Origin: an uncultured Aquimarina sp.
GTDB taxonomy: Bacteria; Bacteroidota; Bacteroidia; Flavobacteriales; Flavobacteriaceae
Length of the DNA: 64,000 bases
NCBI RefSeq assembly: GCF_947492965.1
Contig: NZ_CANLOZ010000007.1
Location: forward strand, 124,001-188,000
Direction of reading: 5' to 3'
Shown piece by piece: positions 10,997-36,434 of this stretch (the first letter of the stretch is position 1; each line of letters begins with the position of its first letter). The translations under genes were made by a program, and so were the position numbers. The notes under the pieces were generated by a model that was given only the letters and a program-made list of their open reading frames with translations, was not told the origin of the DNA and did not search any database.

Positions 10997-13900
10997 ATGA
11001 AAGAACGAATCATTCTTGTTTTCATACTCGTTATAATAAACCTAAATTATTCAATGGCTCAAAACAATAATAACTACCAAGATGATTGGAAAAAAGTAGA
11101 AAGTTTTGATAAAGATGGACTACCTAAATCCGCATTAGAAATTGTAGAAGCTATTCACTCTAAAGCTAAAAAGGCTAATAATACAAATCAGATTACAAAA
11201 GCACTGATTTATAAAGCCAAATACCTTTTGGTTTTAGAAGAAAACGCACAATTAAATATTATTAAGGAGTTTAAAAAAGAAATTGCAAATAGCAAATTTC
11301 CTAGCAAAAATATATTAGAAAGTATTCTTGCTAATTTATATTGGCAATATTTTCAGCAACATAGATGGCTGTTTTATAACAGAACTAAAACTGCCGAAAA
11401 AGTAGATAAAGAAGATTTTAGAACTTGGGATTTAGAAACGTTGTTTGCAGAAATTCATTTCTATTATCAGAAATCCTTAGATAATGGCTTGCTAGCCCAA
11501 CAAACAGATTTGACAAAGTTTGATGATATCTTAGAAAAATCGGGAGATTCTAAAATATACCGCCCTACTCTTTTTGATTTTTTATCTCATAATGCGTTGG
11601 CATTTTACAAGACCTCTGAAACAAGTATTACTAAACCAGCGTATGCTTTTGAAATTGATTCTCCAGACTATTTAAAAGACCACCAACAATTTTCTTTAAT
11701 AAAACTAGAAACAAAAGATTCTTTATCATTACAATTTCATGCTTTAAAAATATATCAAAACCTTATCAATTTTCATAAAAGAGATAAGAAACCAGCTGCT
11801 TTGATCGAGGTAAATATCGAACGTCTAAAATTCGTGTATGAACATGCTATTTATAGCAACAAACAAGAACTACTGCTAACCACATTATTATCAGAAAAAG
11901 AAAAACACCAACAATTTCCTGCAGTTACCTTATACAATTATGAGATTGCCGATTTATATAAAACACAGGCAGCTACATACATCCCAAAAGAAAATGAAAC
12001 ACATCGCTGGACATTACAAAAAGCAATAGAAATATGTGATAATGCTATTTCTAAACATCCAAAATCCAGAGGAGCTAATAATTGTGCTTACCTAAAAGAA
12101 CAAATTCTGGATCCAAACATTAATAGTATAACATTAGAAAGCTATATACCTATAAATAAGCCTTCCAAACTTCTAATCAATTACAAAAATCTAGATCAGG
12201 TGTATTTTAAGGTTTTAAAAATTAATAGAAGTGAATTAAAATTCTTTAACAAGCTTTACCAAAGCAAAGAAAAAATATCTTTTTTAAACAAGTTATCTAC
12301 TATAACTTCATGGGATTCTAAGCTGATCGACGAAAAGGATTATCAGAATCATACTATAGAGATTAACGTTCCTGTATTGCCTCAAGGATCTTATATGATT
12401 GTTGGATCTACCTCTAAAGATCTTAGTGTTAATACGTCTTTCTCTTTTGGTAATCTTCAGGTAACTGACTTAACTCTTGTAGAAAGCAAAACGAACAAGG
12501 CTACAAAATTTCAGGTAATCGATAGAACAAATGGGACTCCCATTTCTAATGCTTCTATTCAACTTACTTCTGATAGAAGAAGAAACCAATTAAACAAAAA
12601 GCTTAGTACCAATGATAAAGGTGAAGCTTTTTTTACCCAAGAAGGATATTATTATAATGTATTAGCTACAGTTACCAAAGGAGAAGATACTGCTTATTTC
12701 AATGGTTTATACCTAAACCATTATGGTGGTGATTCTGAGCCTGACAATACTACGCGATATACTACATTCCTGTTCACAGATAGAAGTATTTACAGGCCAG
12801 GACAGACAGTTTATTTTAAAGGAATAATGATGTCTTCTGCCGGAAACGAAAAACATAAAGTTGTAGCAAACAGAGCCACTTTTGCAAAACTTATAGATAT
12901 GAATGGACAAGAAGTAAAACTTCTTAATTTCACTACTAATGAGTACGGATCATTTGCAGGAGAGTTTATTTTACCTTCATCCGGATTAACAGGTAATTAC
13001 ACGATTCAAACGGATAGCTATAACAGTACGTATATATCGGTTGAGGAATATAAACGACCAAAGTTTGAAACAAAATTTAATCCTGTTACCGAAACCTACA
13101 AAGTAAATGACAGTATACATTTAACAGGAACCGCAACTGCATATGCAGGCAGTAATATTACCGACGCCAAAGTGGTATATCGTGTATATAGACAAGTGCA
13201 ATATCCTCGTTGGTGTTATTGGTTCCCTTCATACGGATCCGAAGAACAAGAAATTACCCACGGAGAAACAAAAACAAATGATAATGGTGAATATAAAATA
13301 ACTTTTGCAGCATTACCTGACAAAAGTGTTTCTAAAGAAAATCAACCTACTTTTACTTATAAAGTAACTGCGGATGTCACTGATATCAATGGAGAAACCA
13401 GAAGTACTACAACCTATGTAAATGTAGGATACCATGCATTGATAGCCTCTCTAAATATTAGTTCGGAAATTGATAAAACCAAAAAAGATCAAGTTTTATC
13501 TGTATCCACTAGAAATCTAAATGGAGAGCTTGTTGAAAATAGTGGAAACATTGCAATATTCAAATTACAAGCTCCAGAATGTCCGCTAAGAGTGCGCCCA
13601 TGGAAAGCACCTGATTACAAAAGTAGCACCAAAGAAGAGTTTAAAAAACTATTCCCTCACGATGCTTTCCAGAATGAAGATGATTTTAGAAATTGGAAAA
13701 AAAGTAATTCGATTTTAGAAGCATCATACGATACTAAAGAAACGAAAGACAATACCAAAGGAACCGCAGAAATAGGACTTAAAAACTTAAAAAAATGGGA
13801 AACGGGTAAATATATCATAGAACTTAAAACCAAAGATAAGTTTGGACAAGAAGTAAAAGATATTACCTATATCAATGTATTCGATCAATCTGAAAAATCT

Positions 13901-16900
13901 ATTGCAGACAATAAACTCTTCGAAATTACTACAGATAAGAATGCATACGCCATTGGAGATGATGTTTTATTAAAAATCAGTTCTGCTTCTGAAGATATCG
14001 TCATAACCTTAGATATCGAAAAAAACAAACAAGAAGTTGATACTAGAATTATCAGACTTTCTAACAATAGTAAAACGATTAAAATTCCAGTAAACAAAAC
14101 TGATCTTGGAGGATTTGCTATTTCATACAGTTTTGCCAACTATAACGCGTATCAGAGTGGTACTATACCTATTACTGTACCTTATGAACCAACGCAGTTA
14201 TCTATAGAAACTAAAACTTTCAGGGATAAACTACAACCTGGACAACAAGAAACCTGGAGTTTTACTATCAAAGGACCTAAAGGAGATAAAGTATCTGCAG
14301 AACTATTAGCAAGTATGTACGATGCATCTTTGGATCAATTTAAACCACACCAATGGTATTTCAACCCAATCAATAGACCAGTATTCTATTCGTATTCTCA
14401 GCGTAATGCTAATAAGAGTTTTACCAAAGGGAAATTCAATATCTACCCTCACAAACTCTGGAAAACTAGCTTTACCAGTCAATACTATGACCAGCTTAAT
14501 TGGTTTGGGTTATATTTTGGAAACTCTTATAATTATAGGTTCGCTACTACTGGAGCTAAAGCAAGAAAAAGAAGTGAAATATTGGAACAAAGTGCTGCTG
14601 CTCCAATGGAAATGTCAAAATTAGCTGAAATATCTAACGTAGAAGAAAATGAAGAGATCGTTCAAACATTAAATGATTCCGTAGAATCAGGATATGAAGA
14701 TTTCACAGAGGGTAAAAAAATAAAAGATAACAAAAAAGACCCTTCTTTAGAAGGAGTGAAAATCCGTAAAAATCTACAAGAAACAGCATTTTTCTTTCCT
14801 CAATTAACTACTGATAATGAAGGAAACATAAGTTTTAATTTTACGACTCCAGAAGCATTAACAAAATGGAAAGTACAATTATTAGCGCATACCAAAACAT
14901 TAAACGCGGGAACGCAATTACTAGAAACGGTTACGCAAAAAGAATTAATGATCTTACCTAATCCACCAAGGTTTTTGCGAGAAGGAGATCAAATCATTCT
15001 GAGTTCTAAAGTATCTAATATTTCCACCAAAGATCTGAGTGGTATCATAGAACTGCAACTTACCGATGCACTCACTGGAAAATCAATAGATACAGACTTA
15101 CAAAACAACAATATCCGACAGGAATTTGCTGTAAAAGCTACAGGAAACACTAATATTTCTTGGGAATTAAAAATTCCGGATAATGTACAAACAGTACAAT
15201 ACAAAATCATAGCAAAAGCAGGTGAATTTTCTGATGGAGAACAAAACGTATTACCCGTTCTATCCAATAAAATGATGGTTACAGAAACATTGCCAATGTG
15301 GATTCGATCTGATCAGACCAAGACATTTACGTTAGATAAGTTAAAGGATAACACTTCTAACACCTTAAAGAATCATAAGCTTACGTTAGAAATGACTTCT
15401 AATCCAGCTTGGTATGCAGTGCAAGCATTACCTTATTTAATGGAATACCCTTATGAATGTGCAGAACAAACATTTTCTAGATATTATGCAAACTCTTTGG
15501 CTAGTCATATTGCCAATTCTAATCCTAGAATTCAGGAAGTCTTTAATCAATGGAAAAACACAGATGCTTTAGAAAGTAACTTAGAAAAGAACCAAGAGTT
15601 AAAATCATTAATCATCCAAGAGACGCCTTGGCTACGCGATGCGCAGAGCGAAAGTGAACAAAAGAAACGCATAGCTTTACTTTTTGATCTTAATAAAATG
15701 AATAATGAGCTGCAACGCGCTATTAATAAACTACAACAAATGCAATATGGATCTGGTGCTTTTCCATGGTTTAAAGAAGGAAGAGAAAACAGATTCATCA
15801 CACAACATATTGCTTCAGGGTTTGGGCATCTTAAAAAACTTGGCGTTACGCAATACGACAGTAAAACCAAAGGAATGATGCAAAAAGCAGTTCGCTATCT
15901 AGACCAAGAGTTTGTAGATGAATATGAAGAACTAAAAAGATATTGTAAAAAACATAATGTTGATATCAATAAAGATCATTTGAGTTACACCCAAATGCAT
16001 TATCTCTATATGCGTAGTTTCTTTTCTGATATCAAAAGAAATAGAAACACCAATGAAGCTTGGGAGTATTACCTAGGGCAGTCAAAAAAATATTGGTTAA
16101 AAAGAGGTTTATATGCTCAAGGACTATTAGCGCTGATCTTGCATAGAAATAATGACTCCACCACCGCTACAAAAATCATCAGATCTCTAGATGAAAAAAG
16201 TATTACTAATGAAGAATTAGGAATGTACTGGAAATCTAATGTAGGTAGTTGGTACTGGTACCAAGCACCCATCGAAACACAAGCATTGATGATCGAAGTC
16301 TTTTCTGAAATTGAGCAAGAACCTAAAAAAACAGAAATTGTAGACAACCTAAAGATTTGGTTATTAAAAAATAAACAGACTAATCAATGGAAAACTACAA
16401 AAGCCACTACCGAAGCTGTATATGCCCTACTGCTACAAGGTAGTGACTGGTTATCTGTAACTGATATGGTAGAAATCGTACTTGGGAATCAAAAGATTGA
16501 TCCTAGTAAGATCGAAGATGTAAAAGTAGAAGCTGGAACAGGATATTTTAAAACCTCCTGGAATGGTAATGAAATCCAAAAGGATATGGCTACTGCCAAA
16601 ATTACCAAAAAAGGAAAAGGAATCGCTTGGGGAGCTTTGTACTGGCAATACTTCGAAAACCTTGACAAAATAACCTCAGCAGAAACTCCGTTAAAACTTA
16701 AGAAAAAACTGTTCTTAAAGAAAAATACGGATCGCGGAGAAGAGATTACAGAGATTACCGAAAAAACTAAACTACAACTTGGTGACTTAGTAAGAGTACG
16801 TATTGAATTACGATCTGATCGCGCTATGGAATTTGTACATATGAAAGATATGCGTGCTTCTGGATTAGAGCCAATAAATGTACTATCACAATACAAATAT

Positions 16901-17107
16901 CAAGATGGACTAGGATATTATGAAAGCACGAAAGATGCATCTACTAATTTCTTCTTTGACTATTTACCAAAAGGAGTCTATGTATTTGAATATGATCTTC
17001 GTGTGAACAATAAAGGTAATTTCTCCAATGGAATTACCACTATTCAGAGTATGTATGCACCAGAATTTAGTAGTCATTCAGAAGGTGTTCGAGTTCAAAT
17101 AGATTAA
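10997..17107 (+). CDS. Alpha-2-macroglobulin family protein with thioester motif (paralogue 1)
   Basis: This 2036-residue protein has a signal peptide without a lipobox, so it is predicted to be a soluble periplasmic protein rather than a lipoprotein. The first 370 residues are helical. Macroglobulin (MG) domains follow; the MG2 signature TDRSIYRPGQTVYFKG starts near residue 593 and is followed by NEYGSFAGEF. A low-complexity linker (about residues 1180-1255) sits where the bait region lies in this family. The A2M domain follows (LQETAFFFPQL). The thioester motif CAEQ begins at Cys1488. Bacterial A2Ms trap invading proteases by thioester linkage; that is established for E. coli-type proteins. 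A second paralogue lies at 23698-30255. No pbpC is nearby, unlike in many proteobacteria. Confidence 0.93.
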   Translation: MKERIILVFILVIINLNYSMAQNNNNYQDDWKKVESFDKDGLPKSALEIVEAIHSKAKKANNTNQITKALIYKAKYLLVLEENAQLNIIKEFKKEIANSKFPSKNILESILANLYWQYFQQHRWLFYNRTKTAEKVDKEDFRTWDLETLFAEIHFYYQKSLDNGLLAQQTDLTKFDDILEKSGDSKIYRPTLFDFLSHNALAFYKTSETSITKPAYAFEIDSPDYLKDHQQFSLIKLETKDSLSLQFHALKIYQNLINFHKRDKKPAALIEVNIERLKFVYEHAIYSNKQELLLTTLLSEKEKHQQFPAVTLYNYEIADLYKTQAATYIPKENETHRWTLQKAIEICDNAISKHPKSRGANNCAYLKEQILDPNINSITLESYIPINKPSKLLINYKNLDQVYFKVLKINRSELKFFNKLYQSKEKISFLNKLSTITSWDSKLIDEKDYQNHTIEINVPVLPQGSYMIVGSTSKDLSVNTSFSFGNLQVTDLTLVESKTNKATKFQVIDRTNGTPISNASIQLTSDRRRNQLNKKLSTNDKGEAFFTQEGYYYNVLATVTKGEDTAYFNGLYLNHYGGDSEPDNTTRYTTFLFTDRSIYRPGQTVYFKGIMMSSAGNEKHKVVANRATFAKLIDMNGQEVKLLNFTTNEYGSFAGEFILPSSGLTGNYTIQTDSYNSTYISVEEYKRPKFETKFNPVTETYKVNDSIHLTGTATAYAGSNITDAKVVYRVYRQVQYPRWCYWFPSYGSEEQEITHGETKTNDNGEYKITFAALPDKSVSKENQPTFTYKVTADVTDINGETRSTTTYVNVGYHALIASLNISSEIDKTKKDQVLSVSTRNLNGELVENSGNIAIFKLQAPECPLRVRPWKAPDYKSSTKEEFKKLFPHDAFQNEDDFRNWKKSNSILEASYDTKETKDNTKGTAEIGLKNLKKWETGKYIIELKTKDKFGQEVKDITYINVFDQSEKSIADNKLFEITTDKNAYAIGDDVLLKISSASEDIVITLDIEKNKQEVDTRIIRLSNNSKTIKIPVNKTDLGGFAISYSFANYNAYQSGTIPITVPYEPTQLSIETKTFRDKLQPGQQETWSFTIKGPKGDKVSAELLASMYDASLDQFKPHQWYFNPINRPVFYSYSQRNANKSFTKGKFNIYPHKLWKTSFTSQYYDQLNWFGLYFGNSYNYRFATTGAKARKRSEILEQSAAAPMEMSKLAEISNVEENEEIVQTLNDSVESGYEDFTEGKKIKDNKKDPSLEGVKIRKNLQETAFFFPQLTTDNEGNISFNFTTPEALTKWKVQLLAHTKTLNAGTQLLETVTQKELMILPNPPRFLREGDQIILSSKVSNISTKDLSGIIELQLTDALTGKSIDTDLQNNNIRQEFAVKATGNTNISWELKIPDNVQTVQYKIIAKAGEFSDGEQNVLPVLSNKMMVTETLPMWIRSDQTKTFTLDKLKDNTSNTLKNHKLTLEMTSNPAWYAVQALPYLMEYPYECAEQTFSRYYANSLASHIANSNPRIQEVFNQWKNTDALESNLEKNQELKSLIIQETPWLRDAQSESEQKKRIALLFDLNKMNNELQRAINKLQQMQYGSGAFPWFKEGRENRFITQHIASGFGHLKKLGVTQYDSKTKGMMQKAVRYLDQEFVDEYEELKRYCKKHNVDINKDHLSYTQMHYLYMRSFFSDIKRNRNTNEAWEYYLGQSKKYWLKRGLYAQGLLALILHRNNDSTTATKIIRSLDEKSITNEELGMYWKSNVGSWYWYQAPIETQALMIEVFSEIEQEPKKTEIVDNLKIWLLKNKQTNQWKTTKATTEAVYALLLQGSDWLSVTDMVEIVLGNQKIDPSKIEDVKVEAGTGYFKTSWNGNEIQKDMATAKITKKGKGIAWGALYWQYFENLDKITSAETPLKLKKKLFLKKNTDRGEEITEITEKTKLQLGDLVRVRIELRSDRAMEFVHMKDMRASGLEPINVLSQYKYQDGLGYYESTKDASTNFFFDYLPKGVYVFEYDLRVNNKGNFSNGITTIQSMYAPEFSSHSEGVRVQID

Positions 17108-23601: not shown

Positions 23602-23697
23602 CATATATCACTTCCCTAATCCAAATACCTCATTCGCTCATTCTTGATGGTATAAGTTGTATTGATTTATGTACTTCGTAGTAATAAACTAACTACT

Positions 23698-26600
23698 ATG
23701 AGAAATCCATACTACATCTTCTTCCTACTTTTCTTTCTTACGATCAGCAGTAGTGCTCAATATAAGTACGATAAACTATGGGCAAAAATTGAAAACCTAG
23801 AACTTGAAGGCAAAACGAGATCTGCGTACAAAGAAATTGATCTAATACGTAAACTAGCACAGCGAGAAGACAACCAATCGCAAATCATCAAATCATTTTT
23901 ATACCAAGCTAAGTATAAACTTCTATTGGAGGAAAATGCGGAAAGTAATGTATATGAAATGTTACTTTCTGAGCTGAAGAAAACAAAATTCCCTACTAAA
24001 AATATTCTAGAGTCTATTCTTGCTAAAAGTTTAGAAAACTATCTAGACAGCAATTCATATAAAATAAGAAACCGAACTAGTACTGACACAATTATATCCT
24101 TAGATTATAGAACTTGGGATATCAACACATTAAACAAACAAATACACAAACACTATCAAAACTCTCTAAAGCAACCAGAACAACTTTTAATAATTAATGA
24201 CACCGTATTTTCAGAAATTTTAAAACTTGGAGATAATGACCAAAAATACCGAAATACACTGTATGATCTTTTAGCCAATAGAGCTATTGGTTTTTATCAT
24301 TCAAACAACTATTCCCATACAAAAAAGGATCTTGCTCCTATCCTACCTGATTATTATAGTATCCCCACTGTTTTTAGCACTAAAGAAATTGGTACTGAGA
24401 ATGAATTTTCATTCATAAAAAACACTTTGAAATTATATCAAAGTATTGAAAAAATACACTTACTAAGAAAAGATTCTTTATCGCTTATTCATACAGCTTT
24501 AGATCGTTTAAAATTTGTTAAACAAAAAAATAACTCTCAAAAGGACTTGTATTTCGATGCATTAAAAAATTTACAATCACAATACACAGGAATATCTAGA
24601 ATACCGATACTCTTAGATTTAGCAAAGTATTATAAAAATAATATGCATATCTATTTTCGTCCAGATTACAATACGAAAGCTATAGAAATATGTGATCAGA
24701 TTCTAAAAGAAGCACCAAATACCCCTCCAGAAATTGAAGCAAAAAAACTTAAAGAATTAATTACCAATCCAAGTTTAAAAATTACCACAGAAAATTTTCT
24801 TATACCTAACAAAAAAAGTAGAGCTCTCATTAAATATAAAGATATCGATAGTATCCATATTTCATTTTATAAAGTACCTTTTTCTTATCAATCCATAAAG
24901 GATAGCTACTATGATATTGATTCTTTAATCACAGATTTTACCAAAAACCACATTCCTGTCAAAAAAAAGGTATATAATTTACCAAAGGATCAGTATCACA
25001 CAGAAAGATCAACCGAGGTAATTTTACCTGAATTAACATCAGGAAAATATCTTATTATCGTTAGAAAAAATCCTGATACAGATTTCAAAAATGATATCTA
25101 TGGTATTAATTATATCCAAGTTAGCTCTTTAGCATTAATTTCCTTCTCTGGAAACCAAAAGACCAGTTATCAGGTCGTGAATAGATATAGTGGATCACCC
25201 ATAGAAAATGCTTCTATATCATTACAAGATATTAGAAAAGAAATGCCTTTTTTAAGAAAACTCATCACCAACGAAAACGGAAAAGCAACAATCAACCTAG
25301 AAGAGAAATCACATCAACTAAATACATTCGTATCAAAAGATAATGATTCTCTTTTTCTGGAAACATTTATTAATCCCAAATATGTATCTAAAAGATATCA
25401 TAGAAGTTATTCAAAGGATTTAGAAGCTAAAGCCAAAATATTCACAGATCGAAGTATTTATCGACCTGGGCAAAAAGTATATTTCAAAGGAGTTTTAACA
25501 CAACGAAATAAGAAAAAATCTAGTCCGGTTGCTGGAGAATTTGTAATCGTCACATTATATGATGCCAATAATAACGAAGTTAAAGAACTACGTCTTAAAA
25601 CGAACGAGTTCGGTTCCGTACATGGTGAATTTACGTTACCTACCAATAGACTAAACGGAGAATTCACTATAGAAATGGACGAAGATTATGAAGAGGACTC
25701 TAAGTTCTGGGAGGATATGTATAATTTTGAAGTAGAAGAACATACAATTAGGGTTGAGGAATATAAGCGTCCTAGGTTTGAAATTACATTCGATAAAATA
25801 ACCGAAACCTATACCCTAAATGATTCTGTAAAAATTAAAGGAGTAGCTAAAGCTTTTTTAGGAGCAGCAATATCCAATACCAAAGTAAATTATACAATTA
25901 CCAGAGAAAGAAATTATCAATTACTCGACGATCGAGAAGAAGTTGTGATCACAGGAAGTACAACTACAAATTCGCAAGGTAGTTTTGTTATCACTTTTAT
26001 TCCTTCAATCAACTCAACAACTAAATCAGTATCTAACCTCATATATAATTATAACATAAATGCTGAGATTACTGATATCAATGGTGAAACGAGAAATGAA
26101 ACGCAAAGCATTAGAATAGGCTACCATAGCTTAGAAGCTAATATCCTTATGAATCAGAACTTATCATCAGACAAAACAGATAATACACTTTATGTAAGCA
26201 TCAAAAATCTGAACAATCATCCAATAGGTTATAAAGGAACGGTATCCATTTATAAATTAAAACATCCAAATAGAGTTTTACGTAAAAGACCTTGGAACTC
26301 ACCAGATGTTCAACAAATCCCAAAAGATACATTTGTTAAATTCTTTCCGAACGATGCATATAAAACAGAAGACCTCGATACGCATAACGATAAGGATATT
26401 ATAAAAACCTATACCATAAATACCGAGAAAGACGATAAAATAACATTAGGCAACATAAAAAATTGGAAAGGAGGAAAATACATTGCTAAATTTCATACTA
26501 AAGATGAGTTTGGGTATGACATTACTGCAGAACAGCAATTTACACTAACCAATCCAAAAGAAAAATACCTTGCAGATAATCAAATTTTTGATTTTAAAAT

Positions 26601-29600
26601 AAATGACAGTCAAGTAGAGACTAAAAACATCCTAAACATAGAATTAAGAACTGCTGCAAAATCATTATTTGTTCATGTAGAAGCTTATCAAAAAAATAAA
26701 GTGATTTTTAAAGATGTCGTAGAAATTATTAATGGTAAATACAACATCCCTATACATTTAAAGCAAAAAAAAGATCAAATAGATATACAAGCTTCTTTTA
26801 TAAAGTATAATTGCATCTGGACCGATAGGATTGCGCATTATTTTCCACAGCATGATGAAAGTACGGATCTAAACATTGAGTTGGAGACCTTCAGAAATAA
26901 ACTAGAACCAGGCAACAATGAGACTTGGAAGCTTAAAATTTTAAACAATAACAACAAAGCTGCTTCTGCAGAAATACTGGCTTCCATGTATGATATGTCT
27001 TTGGACACCTTCCTTAGTCACGAGTGGCAAGGTGATATAAAAATCCCCATTACAGAACCCTATTACTATAATAATCTTCCCAGTATACAAACACAGACTT
27101 CGTTTAGAAATCTTTCTATTTGGATAAAAAACCTACAGGTAAAATACTATCGCCCTCGGAATTTCACCTACAATTCAATCAATACCTTTGGATTTCATTT
27201 TTCTAATCCAGAACGAGGTCATAGAAACTATCTAAGAACCATTTCATATCACTCTAAACCGACAAAACCTAAAAAAGGTAAACGATTAAAAGCAACAGGA
27301 GGAACAATCACCGGTATTGTAACAGATGCCGACGGGCATCCATTACCAGGAGTAAATATTGTGATTAAAGGAACAACTCGCGGAACACAAACAGATTTTG
27401 ATGGGTTATTTACAATTGAAGCTAACAAAAACGATCTTCTTATTTTTTCTTATCTAGGGTTTATTTCTTCGGAAATCAAAGGAAATAACAATAGAGCTTC
27501 CATAAGGATGAGAGAAGATGCATCGGAGTTAGAAGAAGTTGTGGTAGTAGGTTATGGAATACAACGACAAAAAAAGAATCTGAGTTATTCAGTTTCTACT
27601 ATTACAATGGAAGAGATTAGTGGCGAATTTGATCGCGTATTGAATGGTAAAGTTGCAGGGGTAGAAATTGCATCAGCAACAGCGGCGGCTGGATCTTCTT
27701 CCTCTATAAAAATACGAGGATATGCTTCTGTAAAAGATAAAGAAAAAGTACTAATCGTTGTTGATGGAGTACCCTTTCTAAAAGGTCGACAATCGCTAAA
27801 CACCGAGGACATTATAGATATGCAAGTATTAAAAGGTAGTGCTGCCAAAGCCATCTATGGAAGTAAAGCCGCTAACGGTGTTATTATCATTACTACTAAA
27901 AAAGGTGTAGAAGCATTACAAAAAGTGATACCAAGAAAAAACTTGAAAGAAACGGCCTTCTTCTTTCCACAGTTACAAACCGATAAAAAAGGAAACGTAA
28001 GCTTTAGCTTTACTTCTCCAGAAGCGTTGACTCGATGGAAATTTCAGGCATTTGCTTATGACAAACAACTAAATACGAAATTAATTCAAAGCGAAGTAAT
28101 TACCCAAAAACAACTAAGCATTGTTCCTAATATTCCTCGTTTTCTAAGAGAAGGCGATACTGTAACTATATCAGCTAAAATTGCTAATATGGACATTAAG
28201 AAAATGAAAGGACTGGCATCTCTAAACCTAATTGATGAAGTTTCTCAAAACGATTTAAAAACACTTTTTCTAGATAACAATACTGTACAAAACTTTGCTA
28301 TAGATGCTAGAGGAAATACTTCTGTAAGTTGGAAATTATACATCCCAAAATCCGTACAAGCTATCCGCTACAAGATTGTAGCAAAAGCTGGTAAATTTAG
28401 TGATGGAGAAGAAAGTGTGATTCCAGTTTTAACCAATAGAATGTTAGTGACAGAAAGTATTCCTATGTGGGTACGTCCCGGAGAACAAAAAACGTTTGGG
28501 TTTCCTAAAATGATAGATCAACCTTCTGTTACCAGACAAAACCACCAGATCACCTTAGAATATACGACCAACCCTACCTGGTTTGCCATAAAATCATTGC
28601 CCTATCTAATGGAATATCCATACGAATGTGCAGAGCAAACCTTTGCCAAATATTATAGTAATGAGATCGCTAGTCATATCTTGAACAGCAATCCGAAAAT
28701 TAAAAAAGTATTTGACCGCTGGAAAGCAAATGGAAAATTAGTATCTGATCTAGAAAAGAATCAAGAGTTAAAAAGCATATTGATTCAGGAAACACCATGG
28801 CTCAGAAATTCTAAAAATGAAAAAGAACAACAAACAAGATTAGCAGAATTATTTGATCTTGTCAAAATCACCACAAAACAAGAAACTATTTTGGATAAAC
28901 TAAAAGGCATGCAAGATACTTCAGGAGGATTTCCATGGTTTAGTGGCGGTAATACAAATCAATATATTACCAGACATATTGTATCTGGATTGGGACATCT
29001 TAAAAAACTACAAATAGATACAGAACATGCCTACACCTCTAATGTTATTGCAAAAAAAGCAATCGCTTATCTGGACAGTAAATACTTGGAAAATTATAAG
29101 CAGCAACTACGTATCGACAGCACATACGCTTTTTCCAGAAGTGATCTTCACTATTTCTATGCACGAAGCTTTTGGAATGAAAAATATCCAATAAGCAAAA
29201 AAATCGATAGTATTTACAGGAAACATATTCCCAAAGAGCAAAACAAATGGATGCAAGAAAGTCTATTTCAAAAAACTATGCTAGCATTAATCCTACATAG
29301 AAATGGTGACTCCAAAATAGCCAAAAACATTATTAAAACATTAGAAGAAAACGCAGTAATATCTAAGGCAAACGGAATGTACTGGAAAGAAAACAAATCT
29401 GGTTGGTATTGGTATCAATCTCCTATAGAATTGCAAGCATTGATTATAGAAGCTTTTTCTGAAATTACCGGTAACACTAATACTATTAATGAATTAAAAA
29501 CGTGGTTACTAAAAAAGAAACAACTAGAAAGTTGGAGTACCACTAAAGCGACTACAGAAGCCATTTATGCCCTCCTATTACAAGGTAGTGATTGGTTATC

Positions 29601-30255
29601 TGTGGAAGAAAACGCGGAAATTTCATTTGGAACAACATTAAATAAAACTGAATTGCTCCCAATGAACACAATTGAAGCAGGTACCGGATATAGTAAAATA
29701 CAATGGAATGCAGAAGAGGTCAATAATACAATGGACCATATAACGGTACAAAACAAAAGTGCTGTGCCGCAGTACGGAGGATATTATTGGCAATATTTTG
29801 AAGATCTCGATAAAATTACCGGTCCAGAAGAAGATAAGATTATGATCAAAAAAGAACTTTTTCTTAAACAAAATACTACCGAAGGAACGATTTTAAAAAG
29901 AATTACGTGTAGCGAACAACTTAAGATAGGCAACCTAATCACTGTGCGTGTAGAGCTCAATGTAAAAAATAACTTCGAGTTTGTACATATGAAAGATATG
30001 CGAGCATCTGGATTAGAACCTACCAATGTTATCTCTAAATACAAATGGCAGGATGGATTGGGTTATTATGAAAGTACCAAAGATGCATCTACCAATTTCT
30101 TCTTTGATTATTTACCAAAGGGAGTACATGTGTTTGAATATGATTTGCGTATCAATAATAAAGGGGATTTCTCTAATGGGATCACTACCATACAAAGTAT
30201 GTACGCTCCAGAATTTAGTAGCCATTCCAAAGGAGTACGGGTAAAAGTTCACTAA
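23698..30255 (+). CDS. Alpha-2-macroglobulin with an inserted SusC-type regulatory and plug segment (paralogue 2)
   Basis: This 2185-residue protein is paralogous to the 10997-17107 product along its full length, with a nearly identical C-terminal tail. I chose ATG 23698, which directly opens a signal peptide, over a TTG at 23662. MG2 (TDRSIYRPGQKVYFKG) and the thioester motif CAEQ (Cys1644) are present. At residues about 1202-1402 it carries a foreign segment: a CarboxypepD_reg-like domain (ITGIVTDADGHPLPGVNI, FSYLGFI), a VVVGYG link and a TonB-dependent-receptor plug-like region (KVAGVEI, IKIRGYAS, YGSKAANGVIIITTKKG). No beta-barrel follows. The segment occupies the bait-region position, where paralogue 1 has a low-complexity linker. 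Confidence 0.92.
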   Translation: MRNPYYIFFLLFFLTISSSAQYKYDKLWAKIENLELEGKTRSAYKEIDLIRKLAQREDNQSQIIKSFLYQAKYKLLLEENAESNVYEMLLSELKKTKFPTKNILESILAKSLENYLDSNSYKIRNRTSTDTIISLDYRTWDINTLNKQIHKHYQNSLKQPEQLLIINDTVFSEILKLGDNDQKYRNTLYDLLANRAIGFYHSNNYSHTKKDLAPILPDYYSIPTVFSTKEIGTENEFSFIKNTLKLYQSIEKIHLLRKDSLSLIHTALDRLKFVKQKNNSQKDLYFDALKNLQSQYTGISRIPILLDLAKYYKNNMHIYFRPDYNTKAIEICDQILKEAPNTPPEIEAKKLKELITNPSLKITTENFLIPNKKSRALIKYKDIDSIHISFYKVPFSYQSIKDSYYDIDSLITDFTKNHIPVKKKVYNLPKDQYHTERSTEVILPELTSGKYLIIVRKNPDTDFKNDIYGINYIQVSSLALISFSGNQKTSYQVVNRYSGSPIENASISLQDIRKEMPFLRKLITNENGKATINLEEKSHQLNTFVSKDNDSLFLETFINPKYVSKRYHRSYSKDLEAKAKIFTDRSIYRPGQKVYFKGVLTQRNKKKSSPVAGEFVIVTLYDANNNEVKELRLKTNEFGSVHGEFTLPTNRLNGEFTIEMDEDYEEDSKFWEDMYNFEVEEHTIRVEEYKRPRFEITFDKITETYTLNDSVKIKGVAKAFLGAAISNTKVNYTITRERNYQLLDDREEVVITGSTTTNSQGSFVITFIPSINSTTKSVSNLIYNYNINAEITDINGETRNETQSIRIGYHSLEANILMNQNLSSDKTDNTLYVSIKNLNNHPIGYKGTVSIYKLKHPNRVLRKRPWNSPDVQQIPKDTFVKFFPNDAYKTEDLDTHNDKDIIKTYTINTEKDDKITLGNIKNWKGGKYIAKFHTKDEFGYDITAEQQFTLTNPKEKYLADNQIFDFKINDSQVETKNILNIELRTAAKSLFVHVEAYQKNKVIFKDVVEIINGKYNIPIHLKQKKDQIDIQASFIKYNCIWTDRIAHYFPQHDESTDLNIELETFRNKLEPGNNETWKLKILNNNNKAASAEILASMYDMSLDTFLSHEWQGDIKIPITEPYYYNNLPSIQTQTSFRNLSIWIKNLQVKYYRPRNFTYNSINTFGFHFSNPERGHRNYLRTISYHSKPTKPKKGKRLKATGGTITGIVTDADGHPLPGVNIVIKGTTRGTQTDFDGLFTIEANKNDLLIFSYLGFISSEIKGNNNRASIRMREDASELEEVVVVGYGIQRQKKNLSYSVSTITMEEISGEFDRVLNGKVAGVEIASATAAAGSSSSIKIRGYASVKDKEKVLIVVDGVPFLKGRQSLNTEDIIDMQVLKGSAAKAIYGSKAANGVIIITTKKGVEALQKVIPRKNLKETAFFFPQLQTDKKGNVSFSFTSPEALTRWKFQAFAYDKQLNTKLIQSEVITQKQLSIVPNIPRFLREGDTVTISAKIANMDIKKMKGLASLNLIDEVSQNDLKTLFLDNNTVQNFAIDARGNTSVSWKLYIPKSVQAIRYKIVAKAGKFSDGEESVIPVLTNRMLVTESIPMWVRPGEQKTFGFPKMIDQPSVTRQNHQITLEYTTNPTWFAIKSLPYLMEYPYECAEQTFAKYYSNEIASHILNSNPKIKKVFDRWKANGKLVSDLEKNQELKSILIQETPWLRNSKNEKEQQTRLAELFDLVKITTKQETILDKLKGMQDTSGGFPWFSGGNTNQYITRHIVSGLGHLKKLQIDTEHAYTSNVIAKKAIAYLDSKYLENYKQQLRIDSTYAFSRSDLHYFYARSFWNEKYPISKKIDSIYRKHIPKEQNKWMQESLFQKTMLALILHRNGDSKIAKNIIKTLEENAVISKANGMYWKENKSGWYWYQSPIELQALIIEAFSEITGNTNTINELKTWLLKKKQLESWSTTKATTEAIYALLLQGSDWLSVEENAEISFGTTLNKTELLPMNTIEAGTGYSKIQWNAEEVNNTMDHITVQNKSAVPQYGGYYWQYFEDLDKITGPEEDKIMIKKELFLKQNTTEGTILKRITCSEQLKIGNLITVRVELNVKNNFEFVHMKDMRASGLEPTNVISKYKWQDGLGYYESTKDASTNFFFDYLPKGVHVFEYDLRINNKGDFSNGITTIQSMYAPEFSSHSKGVRVKVH

Positions 30256-32506: not shown

Positions 32507-34087
32507 ATGTCTTTGTTTTCAAAACTGACACCAAAACCCTATATATTTTTATTTATTTTTCAATCGATTATATTATTTGGACAACAAAGTGAATTTATAC
32601 AAGGAAAATTAGTCGATTCTAAAACCAAAGAACCGATTTCTTTTGCAACCATTAGAATCAAAAATAAATCTCGAGGTCTAATTTCAAATGCAGATGGTGG
32701 ATTTAAGATTCCTACGAACATTCAAAACATAAGCGATACGCTAGTTGTATCTTCAATAGGATATATTTCTAAAAACATACTATTATCTCAACTCAAATCT
32801 GAACAAGTTAATGTCATATCTTTAGTTCAGAAAATTGAAGAATTGGAAGAAGTCGTTGTAACGAATACCAAAAAGATAAAACGATATGGAGCAAATAGAA
32901 TTGTACGACTAGCCATAGAAAAGATACCAGAAAATTATCCATTTTCTCCTTTTTCATATGTAGGCTATTATAGAGATTACCAAATAAAAGATCAATCGTA
33001 TATAAATTTAAATGAAGCCATTTTAGAAGTTTTTGATAAAGGTTTTGAATCTGATGATTTACAAGAAACCAAAATAAAAATATTCGAGTACAAAAATAAT
33101 TTAGACTTTCCCATTGATACTATTGCCGCCAAACCCTATAATTATGTAAATAGAGATAAAATTATATCCAACAACGCAACATTGAATGGACAAGGCGGAA
33201 ATGAATATACACTCTTAAGATTACATGATGCACTCCGAAACTATCGTATAAATACTTATGATTTTGTGAATAGATTTAACAGAAACTTCATAAAGAACCA
33301 TAGATTTAAAATACTTCCCTCTACTTCTATTGATAATATACCATTATATACCATTGGTATTTCCAAAACCCAGCAAAACATAAAGGTTTCTGGAAAAATC
33401 TATATCAGCAAAGGAGATTTCAAAATCTATAAGATGATATATGCAGTTTTTGACTCATCTAAACCTGAAGATGAAGAAAAAAATACAACGGAAAAAACAT
33501 CTGGAAAATTACTCTATGAAATCATTATAGAATACCAAGAACGTTTTGAAAAAATGTATCCAAGTTATATTTCATTTGATAATACATTTGAAACATCATA
33601 TCCTCCAAGATTTTTCCCTGAAAAGGTATCTGTAAATCAAATGCAAAAACGTTTCGAAATTGTTCTTAATAAAAGACCTTTTTCAAGAGAGGCTCTTAGA
33701 AAAAGAAATTATAGCCTATGGTATTATGGAACTAAACTACAAATAGACAGTATTCGAGTACTACAAAAAAACATCTATATATATCCTAAAAAGAGAAAAT
33801 TAGTTTTCGGCACCAAGCTTATTAGCAAGCAAAAAAAGCAAAGCCATAGAGCAATCGCTATAGAAATTAAAAACATTAGAGATTTAGAAGGAAACCTCAT
33901 CAACAAAAGAGAATCAGTTTCTTTCCATCAGTACAGAGAGTTTTTTGTACAAGAATTATCCATGGATACAAAACCAATACGTGACAGCTTATTTATGATA
34001 AAAACCAAACCAATCTTTAAAAGTAAGTCTGTTATCTCTCCCGAAATACTATCCAACTACTGGATGAATACCCCTCTAAAGAATTAA
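32507..34087 (+). CDS. Carboxypeptidase-regulatory-like domain protein (Bacteroidota surface type)
   Basis: This 526-residue protein has a signal peptide (ending near LFGQ, residue 25) followed by a CarboxypepD_reg-like domain (about residues 30-105: GKLVDSKTKEPISFATIRI, LISNADGGFKI, VVSSIGYISKNI, EELEEVVV). The C-terminal 400 residues are beta-rich with many aromatic and charged residues, without a motif I recognise. The EELEEVV motif is typical of the link that follows such domains before a plug or barrel, but no plug is present. It stands alone, with an inverted repeat in its leader. Confidence 0.75.
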   Translation: MSLFSKLTPKPYIFLFIFQSIILFGQQSEFIQGKLVDSKTKEPISFATIRIKNKSRGLISNADGGFKIPTNIQNISDTLVVSSIGYISKNILLSQLKSEQVNVISLVQKIEELEEVVVTNTKKIKRYGANRIVRLAIEKIPENYPFSPFSYVGYYRDYQIKDQSYINLNEAILEVFDKGFESDDLQETKIKIFEYKNNLDFPIDTIAAKPYNYVNRDKIISNNATLNGQGGNEYTLLRLHDALRNYRINTYDFVNRFNRNFIKNHRFKILPSTSIDNIPLYTIGISKTQQNIKVSGKIYISKGDFKIYKMIYAVFDSSKPEDEEKNTTEKTSGKLLYEIIIEYQERFEKMYPSYISFDNTFETSYPPRFFPEKVSVNQMQKRFEIVLNKRPFSREALRKRNYSLWYYGTKLQIDSIRVLQKNIYIYPKKRKLVFGTKLISKQKKQSHRAIAIEIKNIRDLEGNLINKRESVSFHQYREFFVQELSMDTKPIRDSLFMIKTKPIFKSKSVISPEILSNYWMNTPLKN

Positions 34088-34168
34088 TAATCATTTTATG
34101 CAATAGAGTATGGATGAGTAACATTTCATGTATTTAATAGACCAGTAAGCATCAACAAAATTATTTTC

Positions 34169-34591
34169 ATGACCGATTTATTGAAACTAGCGAGAATTCA
34201 AACGATACTAGTCTTCCTGTTTATTATACTCAAATTCATTCGACCAACTGTTTTAAATAGCAGCACCTATAACTGGGTTAAAATCGTGTTACTTTCATTA
34301 CCCAATTTCTTTGAAGCAATCATAGGGACATTCCTACTAACAGGAATAGGTCTTTATATTAATTTCCGTATACTCCCCGAAAAAACAAAAATCTCCATCT
34401 ACAAACTTTATGTACTAGCAACTATACTAGCTGGAGTATATGTGATAACTCAAGAACTAAAAATTCATAACCTTGGAGGAAATAATGTCTATGATATTAA
34501 TGACATCTTTTTTTCATTTATTGGTTTAATTGTTGGTTACTTTATGATAAGACGTATACAACCAAAGATTTACAATACAAATAGAGATTAA
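34169..34591 (+). CDS. Small membrane protein, four helices
   Basis: This 140-residue protein has about four transmembrane segments (residues 11-30, 47-66, 80-97 and 110-127) and a Lys/Arg-rich end. I do not recognise the family. It is 81 bases after the previous gene, so the link is unclear. Confidence 0.6.
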   Translation: MTDLLKLARIQTILVFLFIILKFIRPTVLNSSTYNWVKIVLLSLPNFFEAIIGTFLLTGIGLYINFRILPEKTKISIYKLYVLATILAGVYVITQELKIHNLGGNNVYDINDIFFSFIGLIVGYFMIRRIQPKIYNTNRD

Positions 34592-34732
34592 CTCATTTAA
34601 CTGCCAAGATAACTCTTCTTCACTCTGCAAAAAGCAGTGTTTACCTATCTAAAAGCTGTGTTCCCTAATTCTACATTTTATATACAAAACAAAGCGTCTA
34701 AGTTTGATGTATAAACTAAAAAGAATAAGATT

Positions 34733-35410
34733 ATGAATCAATTTACTGTAAACATCAAAGAGCCATGCCATCAAAATTTCGAAAACTTTTCTCCAACAGA
34801 TAAAGGAGGATTTTGTAATCATTGTACTAAAGAAGTAATAGATTTCTCTAATATGACTTCTCTAGAAATTACAAACTACTTTAAAAGTCACACCTCAAAT
34901 AACATTTGTGGTCGATTTAAGGATAATCAATTAACTACTTATTCTTACAAGGAATCTAGAAAAAGTCAGTTTAATGTTTTGGGAGCAATCACTATAGCTT
35001 GTATGGCATTATTTTCTTTTACCAAAACTCATGCTCAAAACATAGATAATCAAACAAGAAACTCAATTAATAATCCTTCAAAACTTCAAAGTGCTATTAA
35101 TGACAATTCGATAATAGTTAAGGGTATTGTTTCCGAAAGCGGAAATCCATTACCAGGTGCTAATATCCTGTTAGAAGGAACTGCCATCGGTACATCAACA
35201 GATTTTGATGGTAATTTTGAATTTCCAGTAATGCTAAAAAAAGGAGATGTTCTGGTATTTAGCTATATTGGTTTTACGTCAAAAAAAGTAAAAATTCAAG
35301 ATAACACTTCTGGAAACAATATTGCACTTAATGTAAATCTAAAACCAGATGGTTGTGTTCTGATGGGAAAAGTAGCTGTGAAAAAATTATATAGTTCTAC
35401 AAAAGATTAA
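34733..35410 (+). CDS. Membrane protein with Cys-rich N-terminus and carboxypeptidase-regulatory-like domain
   Basis: This 225-residue protein starts with a cytoplasmic domain with conserved Cys residues (EPCHQNFENFSP, GGFCNHCTKEV, NICGRF), probably a metal-binding fold, typical of a Bacteroidota group in my memory. A single transmembrane helix (about residues 82-98) and a CarboxypepD_reg-like domain (about residues 124-205: VKGIVSESGNPLPGANILL, STDFDGNFEF, VFSYIGFTSKKV) follow. It may sense or transmit envelope signals, but the function is unknown. It is 13 bases before the transglutaminase gene, so the two are co-transcribed. Confidence 0.8.
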   Translation: MNQFTVNIKEPCHQNFENFSPTDKGGFCNHCTKEVIDFSNMTSLEITNYFKSHTSNNICGRFKDNQLTTYSYKESRKSQFNVLGAITIACMALFSFTKTHAQNIDNQTRNSINNPSKLQSAINDNSIIVKGIVSESGNPLPGANILLEGTAIGTSTDFDGNFEFPVMLKKGDVLVFSYIGFTSKKVKIQDNTSGNNIALNVNLKPDGCVLMGKVAVKKLYSSTKD

Positions 35411-35423
35411 TTTAAGCATACAC

Positions 35424-36434
35424 ATGAAATTTTTTCTTAGCACTACACTCTTTCTTCTAATTGCTTGCAATGTATTTTCCCAAGTTTCGGATTTTAAATC
35501 CGTAGACTTTACCAAAGCGGATAAGATTGCTTTTTCTTACAAAGGAGCTTCATTAGAAAATCTTCCGTTGTTAGCGTATCAGCTAACTAATGAATTACCT
35601 ACTGAGGTAGAGAAATTCCGAGCGATATATACATGGGTTTGTCAAAATATAAAAGGAGATCAAGTACAGTTCTCCCAAGTAAGCAGAAAAAGAAGGAAAT
35701 TTCGAAATGATTCCGTTTCATTTATGAAATGGAATCATCAATACAAGAAAAAAGTATTCAAGAGATTAGTAAACAAAAAGATAACCATGTGTACAGGATA
35801 TGCTTATTTGGTAAAAGAGCTTTGTAATTTGGTTGACATTTCTTGTAAAATTATTGATGGCTATGGAAGGTCTGTTACCTCTAATATCAATAAATTAGAA
35901 ATGCCTAATCATTCTTGGAATGCTGTTAAGCTAAATAACAAATGGTACTTATGTGATGCTACTTGGTCTAGTGGCTACCTCGATGAATATGGTGTTTTTA
36001 TCACTTCCTATAATGACGGCTATTTCTTAACTGATCCAGTGTTTTTTGCCAAAAATCACTTTCCAATACATCAAAAATGGCTATTAGATGATACGATAAA
36101 AGTCTCTTCATTTGTAAGCGCTCCGTTGATCTATGGAGAAGCTTTTGCAAACGATATAGAGCCCGTTTCACCCAATAAATTAAATACAGCTATACCTAAA
36201 AATACCGAAGTCATTTTTAGTTTTAAATCTTCACGGAAAATCAAAAAAGATCATATTGAATTGGTTTATTACTCAGGATCTGAAGAAAAAAATATTCATA
36301 TCTACAATACTCAAAACAACAATAACATCACATCTTTCACTTGTACTTTTAAAAATAAAGGACGTTATGACACGCATCTTAGAATAAATGGTGATATTGT
36401 AGCTACCTATTCATTTAGTGTTGGTAAAAGTTAA
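35424..36434 (+). CDS. Secreted transglutaminase-like protein
   Basis: This 336-residue protein has a signal peptide (residues 1-20) and a transglutaminase core. The catalytic triad is Cys123 (TMCTGYAYLV), His163 (NHSWNAVKL) and Asp178 (WYLCDATWS). The C-terminal 90 residues look like an Ig-like beta domain. The fold supports peptidase or cross-linking activity, and in Bacteroidota such proteins often act in the periplasm. Its neighbour is a CarboxypepD_reg-like membrane protein 13 bases upstream, with which it forms an operon. Confidence 0.88.
   Translation: MKFFLSTTLFLLIACNVFSQVSDFKSVDFTKADKIAFSYKGASLENLPLLAYQLTNELPTEVEKFRAIYTWVCQNIKGDQVQFSQVSRKRRKFRNDSVSFMKWNHQYKKKVFKRLVNKKITMCTGYAYLVKELCNLVDISCKIIDGYGRSVTSNINKLEMPNHSWNAVKLNNKWYLCDATWSSGYLDEYGVFITSYNDGYFLTDPVFFAKNHFPIHQKWLLDDTIKVSSFVSAPLIYGEAFANDIEPVSPNKLNTAIPKNTEVIFSFKSSRKIKKDHIELVYYSGSEEKNIHIYNTQNNNNITSFTCTFKNKGRYDTHLRINGDIVATYSFSVGKS

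Follow-up and report, generated by a model that had tools for sequence, protein, structure and literature searches.

The window, a stretch of 64,000 nucleotides from an uncultured Aquimarina sp., encodes two proteins of the alpha-2-macroglobulin (A2M) family, here called P1 and P2, whose bodies are the same. The features of both proteins that are needed below are:

10997..17107, + strand: P1, A2M-family protein of 2036 residues with the thioester motif CAEQ and a short bait
14342..14764, + strand: P1 bait region, 141 residues, a charged low-complexity stretch before RKNLQETAFFFPQL
23698..30255, + strand: P2, A2M-family protein of 2185 residues counted from ATG (open reading frame; Pfam MG2, A2M and bMG10)
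26980..27012, + strand: ASMYDMSLDTF, the conserved stretch that closes the bait-region-domain part before the P2 bait
27307..27546, + strand: CarboxypepD_reg-like domain (the SusC NTE domain) inside the P2 bait (PF13715, 72 bits; model compared with 9hfj)
27526..27558, + strand: TonB box ELEEVVVVGYG, with which a predicted disordered linker begins (pLDDT below 50)
27571..27882, + strand: TonB-receptor plug domain without a barrel (PF07715, 50 bits; the search of the own genome agrees)
27808..27900, + strand: SusC/RagA signature, the AIYGSKAANGVIIITTKKG region (TIGR04057)
27952..28209, + strand: A2M domain PF00207 after the P2 bait (Pfam, from residue 1431)
28627..28638, + strand: thioester motif CAEQ, P2 residues 1656-1659

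The open frame of P2 spans 23662-30255 on the + strand (2197 codons) and opens with TTG at 23662; the ATG at 23698 is the likely start. Pfam places MG2 at residues 593-677, A2M at 1431-1516 and bMG10 at 2062-2184, in that order and all above cut-off. Between the first two, in a single open frame, lies the segment of interest, window 27301-27903, which comprises residues 1202-1402 counted from the ATG or 1214-1414 from the TTG. The first-pass annotation had put it at about residues 1202-1402, a numbering that matches the count from the ATG.

That annotation had read the segment as a SusC regulatory domain followed by a plug, and Pfam, NCBIfam and a phmmer search of PDB all concur. Pfam finds CarbopepD_reg_2 at residues 1216-1295 (cut-off 32.2 bits) and Plug at 1304-1407 (cut-off 23.9 bits). 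The NCBIfam model TIGR04056 (SusC/RagA) aligns over its positions 2-211 of 981 with 244.5 bits, a score below the full-length cut-off of 368, as expected because the module has no barrel, and the SusC signature TIGR04057 scores 48.2 bits (cut-off 46.2). Among PDB entries, the module matched the SusC homologues 8aa4 (E 4.5e-35) and 5t3r (5.4e-33), and RagA as well. Neither Pfam nor NCBIfam lists a barrel family after the plug; A2M domains come next, in agreement with the earlier argument that the segment cannot be a transporter. The post-bait A2M homology resumes, as had been seen, with its conserved start RKNLKETAFFFPQL at window 27934-27975. In the ASMYDMSLDTF region upstream of the bait, M128, Y129, D130, S132 and L133 (numbering of the modelled fragment) are invariant in 52 aligned sequences; Pfam A2M_BRD scores 28 bits in P1 and gives no match in P2 at E 0.01. 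CxEQ is present in 33 of the 33 aligned rows of P2's own family. These results confirm that P2 is a thioester-bearing bacterial alpha-2-macroglobulin with a SusC-type N-terminal module in its bait.

We modelled P2 residues 982-1536 with AlphaFold2 from 52 rows, obtaining a mean pLDDT of 68 and a pTM of 0.33, values at which the relative placement of the domains is not trustworthy. In this model the macroglobulin (MG) parts are confident, the CarboxypepD domain is folded, the next MG domain is modelled, and the first ~30 residues of the plug are poor, with the remainder at pLDDT 57-80. Modelled alone, the module shows a CarboxypepD domain at pLDDT ~95, a plug whose first half lies at ~42-55 and a second half at 80-90. 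The TonB-box linker falls below 50 in both models (fragment residues 308-341; module-alone residues 87-106). The MG parts align to the E. coli and Salmonella A2M structures 4rtd, 4ziq and 4u48 (Z 14.0-14.5, 197-213 residues, rmsd 5.8-14.6), and also to complement C3, C4 and C5; a profile of the post-bait region aligns weakly to C5 (E 6e-4 to 2e-3). The CarboxypepD model superposes on the SusC NTE domain 9hfj (Z 15.3, rmsd 1.5, 79 residues). In both VIA-align lists, the MG parts and the CarboxypepD domain account for all entries; the plug itself has no structural match there, so its identity rests on sequence. The order of the chain and the MG parts on both sides, which align to E. coli and Salmonella A2M around the bait, bear out the bait position claimed for the segment. 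To the extent that chain order and alignment can tell, they speak against the second refutation that the first-pass annotation had named, a segment buried away from that position.

A sample of 232 relatives with 216 distinct baits was assembled from searches at genus, family and order level and from 80 named genome records. In each bait we scored six SusC blocks with matrices derived from 16 receptors of the source genome, and set the threshold per block at the 0.999 quantile of 3020 shuffled baits, which about 1 in 1000 shuffled baits pass. Duplicates and the three loci lacking the upstream anchor (L040, L191, L256) were left out of the counts. At least one SusC block was found in 138 of the 216 distinct baits, a count that is not a prevalence because sampling was by best matches. 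Macroglobulins with receptor pieces, which the first-pass annotation had suggested seeking elsewhere, thus occur in other genera. In the first 151 proteins, 93 baits carried a block, compared with a single one of the 151 flanking domains behind the bait. All 89 long baits (at least 165 residues) have one, as do 49 of 127 short baits. By group, block-bearing baits number 19/66 in Aquimarina, where 47 lack a block, and 119/150 in the others.

Some blocks make up full modules, others are truncated, and others again occur as short motifs whose order is permuted. Order differs from that of SusC in 12 of 91 multi-block baits. Long multi-block baits nearly always follow the SusC order; in short baits, only the TonB-box, GKVAGV-like and IRGxSS-like blocks occur. 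Several blocks are present in 13 short baits, and in 11 of these the order is not that of SusC (e.g. IRG - GRVAGV - TonB box). Permuted motifs of this kind were seen in the short baits of L095, L172, L237, L247, L264 and others. The out-of-order match in L254 proved to be a false one inside the CarboxypepD domain and is not counted. The TonB box is the commonest single block (96/216) and also leads in short baits (31/127). Its core occurs in 47 of 127 short baits (0.8 expected from shuffles), and in 20 of the 78 short baits that are free of blocks (0.4 expected). We found 57 baits with a TonB box and no plug end, and 16 with a plug end and no TonB box. The TonB box as the sole kept element is ruled out, since those 16 of the 55 plug-end baits have no TonB box above threshold.

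A blastp comparison of the 216 baits with 28 SusC loci from eight genomes gave matches for 115 baits. Of the matches, 2702 start before the end of the SusC plug, none starts after it, and none extends more than 30 residues past it, with 13769 residues on offer after the plug and 7468 before. This absence of barrel pieces weakens the idea that nothing but random recombination with SusC genes is at work, with the caveat that the SusC N-terminus is better conserved and hence easier to detect. Within the same order, three of the four rows of one group (f5: L146, L183 and L185) lack the CxEQ thioester and keep a SusC block, so covalent trapping is not needed in these three.

P1 presents the other state of the bait. 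Its bait contains none of the six scored blocks, and none was found outside the bait in the scanned parts of P1 and P2, nor in the second A2M type of the genome (L003). The low-complexity linker attributed to P1 at this place stands, as far as P1 itself is concerned; across the genus the description needs amending, because the P1 linkers of sister species sometimes carry a TonB-box-like core such as ELEEVVV. Around the two genes, no penicillin-binding protein or pbpC was present among the 19 window proteins scanned, and no fixed pbpC neighbour was found among seven neighbour proteins from five named loci. Downstream of P2, window 32507-36434 encodes two CarboxypepD_reg-like proteins and then a transglutaminase-like protein. 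In an uncultured Algibacter (L205:6378-7448), a gene for a peptidase of family M64 lies shortly behind the macroglobulin.

Orthologues of P2 occur in six of 66 Aquimarina genomes, including the source genome, and all six have the module; the five others are 73-87% identical over the query. An assembly artefact or gap, which the first-pass annotation had named as a possible refutation, is ruled out, for the segment recurs in these six genomes and in other genera. The six Aquimarina proteins form one clade with support 100 in a tree of the flanks. A clean clade of all P2-like rows was not recovered in that tree, the smallest group with the 12 P2-like rows having 23 rows and support 11. Purifying selection acts on the P2 insert: the two closest pairs of orthologues give dN/dS values of 0.14-0.35 for the module's three parts, compared with 0.14-0.22 for the part ahead of it and 0.09-0.13 for the A2M part that follows. 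For other pairs, dS is often near or above 1 and dN/dS is less reliable. Evolution is faster in the TonB-box linker and the plug than in this A2M part.

The source genome offers many possible donors of such a module, with 54 plug matches and 17 places above the SusC signature cut-off, P2 itself among them. A recent copy of a resident SusC gene is ruled out by DNA identities of 66-79% over pieces of 56-229 bases; across 20 receptor loci, identity to the module DNA reached 87%, over 30 bases only. When 38 full modules were compared with 43 SusC sequences, only 2 positions were conserved at 80% or more in SusC and below 50% in A2M baits. In a tree of the 38 baits and 47 receptor segments, one bait origin needs at least 3 changes; once four outlying receptors were removed and the model simplified, the baits came together in a single group apart from SusC, at a weak support of 58. 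Among nine baits compared, close orthologues aside, bait-to-bait distances resemble bait-to-SusC distances, mostly at 43-59% identity. One bait (L115) stands beside two SusC proteins of its own genome, G236 (L350 and L358; 58% and 47% identical), perhaps through later exchange. These comparisons favour a single origin of the modules, with weak tree support. Along the flank tree of 247 leaves, the plug end was gained or lost at least 24 times, and for the CarboxypepD domain the minimum is 41 such changes.

A search at phylum level found a SusC block in 11 of 47 loci, one of which (L292) comes from the same order; in L321 and L324, SusC models recognise pieces of the plug. L329, which belongs to another A2M subfamily and comes from a phylum-level relative, has A2M_BRD, CarboxypepD_reg, Plug and A2M in order, the Plug match being weak (E 8e-4, below the Pfam cut-off). 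Two proteins resemble its bait, one encoded in the same genome (62% identical) and one in a related genome (65%). Both of these proteins combine CarboxypepD_reg and Plug with an outer-membrane barrel domain and are therefore TonB receptors. Judged by these matches, L329 is an independent capture of the N-terminus of a different TonB receptor from its own genome. The nine other weakly matching loci among L327-L336 are without a SusC block.

The presence of receptor pieces, whole or scrambled, in many relatives suggests a trap baited with the attackers' target. We propose that the P2 bait is an integrated decoy mimicking the protease-vulnerable part of the cell's own SusC receptors, a reading to which we give close to an even chance. 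The bait copies the N-terminal module of SusC, namely the NTE domain, TonB box and plug. In the receptor, these parts face the periplasm, may be drawn into it during transport, and are open to cleavage there. Attack on receptor plugs, or a preference for such sequences, would lead a protease to cut P2 in this segment too; the cut would spring the trap, and the protease would be bound through the thioester. Candidates are a secreted protease of a rival or a protease of the cell itself that acts on receptors. Starting from the observed module, its position, spread, constraint and independent capture, we infer a periplasmic location for P2, cleavage within the module, trapping and a protease of one of these two kinds.

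Work on other systems is consistent with several of these steps. A study of human A2M reports that the native form and the conformational change both do without any particular stretch of the bait sequence, and that a protein with a bait of glycine-serine repeats is mostly native and inhibits once cleavage sites are restored (PMC9352918). If the bait is freely replaceable, its sequence mainly decides what cuts it. For SusC, a structural study places the NTE domain and TonB box outside the barrel, with the Ton box accessible, describes a plug that can leave the barrel and was seen cut in an earlier crystal structure, and offers a model in which TonB pulls the whole plug into the periplasm; its authors consider spontaneous plug loss probably a detergent effect (PMC7782687). 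The bait thus copies a part of the receptor that a periplasmic protease can reach. PopC and Oar provide a known case of a protease binding to a TonB receptor (PMC6434023). The 17 places with a SusC signature, P2 among them, mean that homologues of the mimicked target are present in the same cell, as an integrated decoy would require. Any piece of the module seems to be enough, which fits a cleavage substrate rather than a part of a machine.

Other observations count against the decoy. The CarboxypepD domain, at pLDDT ~95, is predicted to be well folded and hence a poor substrate, which leaves the linker and the beginning of the plug as the stretches that look accessible. Lengthening the bait predisposes human A2M to a collapsed form (PMC9352918), so the roughly 170 extra residues of the P2 bait also speak against the decoy, unless the body has adapted. 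The probable detergent origin of spontaneous plug loss weighs against it as well, plug removal by TonB being a model of the same authors (PMC7782687). L146, L183 and L185 keep their SusC block though the thioester is lost, the faster evolution of linker and plug equally fits a tolerated passenger, and P1 and the 47 block-free Aquimarina baits do without the receptor pieces altogether.

The prominence of the TonB box, commonest among the blocks and far above shuffled expectation in short baits, could instead mean that TonB box and NTE domain let TonB or another periplasmic partner bind P2 and place it at receptors, or that a pull by TonB arms or fires the trap by proton-motive force. The position of the box in a linker predicted to be disordered would suit such docking, as would the two-hybrid interaction of the N-terminal part of Oar (NTE and plug) with TonB C-terminal domains (PMC6434023). 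We nevertheless consider docking unlikely: 16 of the 55 plug-end baits lack a TonB box above threshold, the plug strands and the signature, not known as TonB requirements, are kept too, and permuted motifs would break the shared fold. The module might also be an old in-frame fusion of SusC into a tolerant loop, a functionless insert that has gone on to decay, shuffle or undergo conversion. The frequent changes of bait state on the flank tree, the abundance of donor genes, the grouping of baits, weakly supported, apart from SusC, and the freedom of sequence reported for the human bait (PMC9352918) are what such a passenger would predict. We find this slightly harder still to accept, as dN/dS in the insert is far below 1, the SusC pattern is preserved in 38 full modules, short motifs are retained in baits that otherwise differ widely, L329 points to an independent capture, and no barrel fragment was detected in the baits.

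Complement proteins carry a folded, released domain at the bait position, and by analogy two-sided cutting of P2 could free an NTE-plug piece that then signals or blocks TonB, as the anaphylatoxin domain is freed. The weak alignment of the post-bait profile to C5 and the alignment of the MG parts to C3, C4 and C5 would accord with this. Permuted or fragmentary baits could hardly yield a folded piece, we know of no receptor for one, and we rate release as very improbable. Having weighed these readings, we return to the decoy. The first-pass annotation had left open whether the segment serves as bait, as a docking element or as a novel trigger; bait is the best supported of these, in an altered sense: it would imitate receptors of the same cell and reflects a widespread habit rather than an oddity of one paralogue. 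Nothing observed here points to a novel trigger.

P2 resembles the type I bacterial A2M proteins (ECAM, SaA2M) in its MG2, A2M and bMG10 domains, its CxEQ motif and a bait that precedes the A2M domain. The bait of ECAM is described as largely disordered (PMC4498604), whereas that of P2 holds a receptor module of about 200 residues. E. coli type I A2M is anchored in the inner membrane and encoded beside pbpC, which is usual and not essential; neither sign was found for P2, whose likely signal cleavage site SSSAQ has no cysteine, as judged by eye. The P2 module keeps the arrangement of SusC/RagA receptors, from the NTE domain through TonB box and plug to the signature, and differs in lacking the barrel and in lying mid-protein. 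C3, C4 and C5 share with P2 a folded domain at the bait position, although the domain of P2 is unrelated to theirs. In plants, NLR integrated decoys are defence proteins that carry a copy of the attacker's target; P2, in contrast, is a protease trap and not a receptor. By title and the start of the abstract, we found no treatment of TonB-receptor pieces in macroglobulin baits among the open-licence papers listed for the terms used. We regard P2 as a macroglobulin with a receptor-mimicking bait.

Nearly all of the plug matches in the source genome appear to lie in frames of receptor length; P2 aside, the only non-receptor recognised among the plug and SusC-signature matches is a protein of the M56/BlaR1 type. 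At that locus, outside the window (L103, C7:25000-30500), a BlaI-type repressor and an M56/BlaR1-like protein with two plug halves stand in a row, and a third frame in the row ends in a plug-half-like motif. A link between this BlaR1-type protein, also one of proteolysis, and bait mimicry is only suggestive. More broadly, we advance, as a reading less likely than not, that the protease traps of Bacteroidota are a form of self-mimicry immunity, their baits repeatedly drawn from the periplasm-exposed N-termini of the cell's own TonB receptors so as to catch proteases that attack these receptors, and that a BlaR1-type signalling arm may share the mimic.

To our knowledge, it has not been established what bacterial alpha-2-macroglobulins target in nature, and the usual view treats their baits as free sequence. 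A bait that mimics TonB receptors would itself name the target of the trap. It would then be directly testable which proteases attack SusC plugs and whether the trap catches them. Such a trap would be a bacterial parallel to integrated decoys, and two families linked to proteolysis would be tied to the state of the nutrient receptors.
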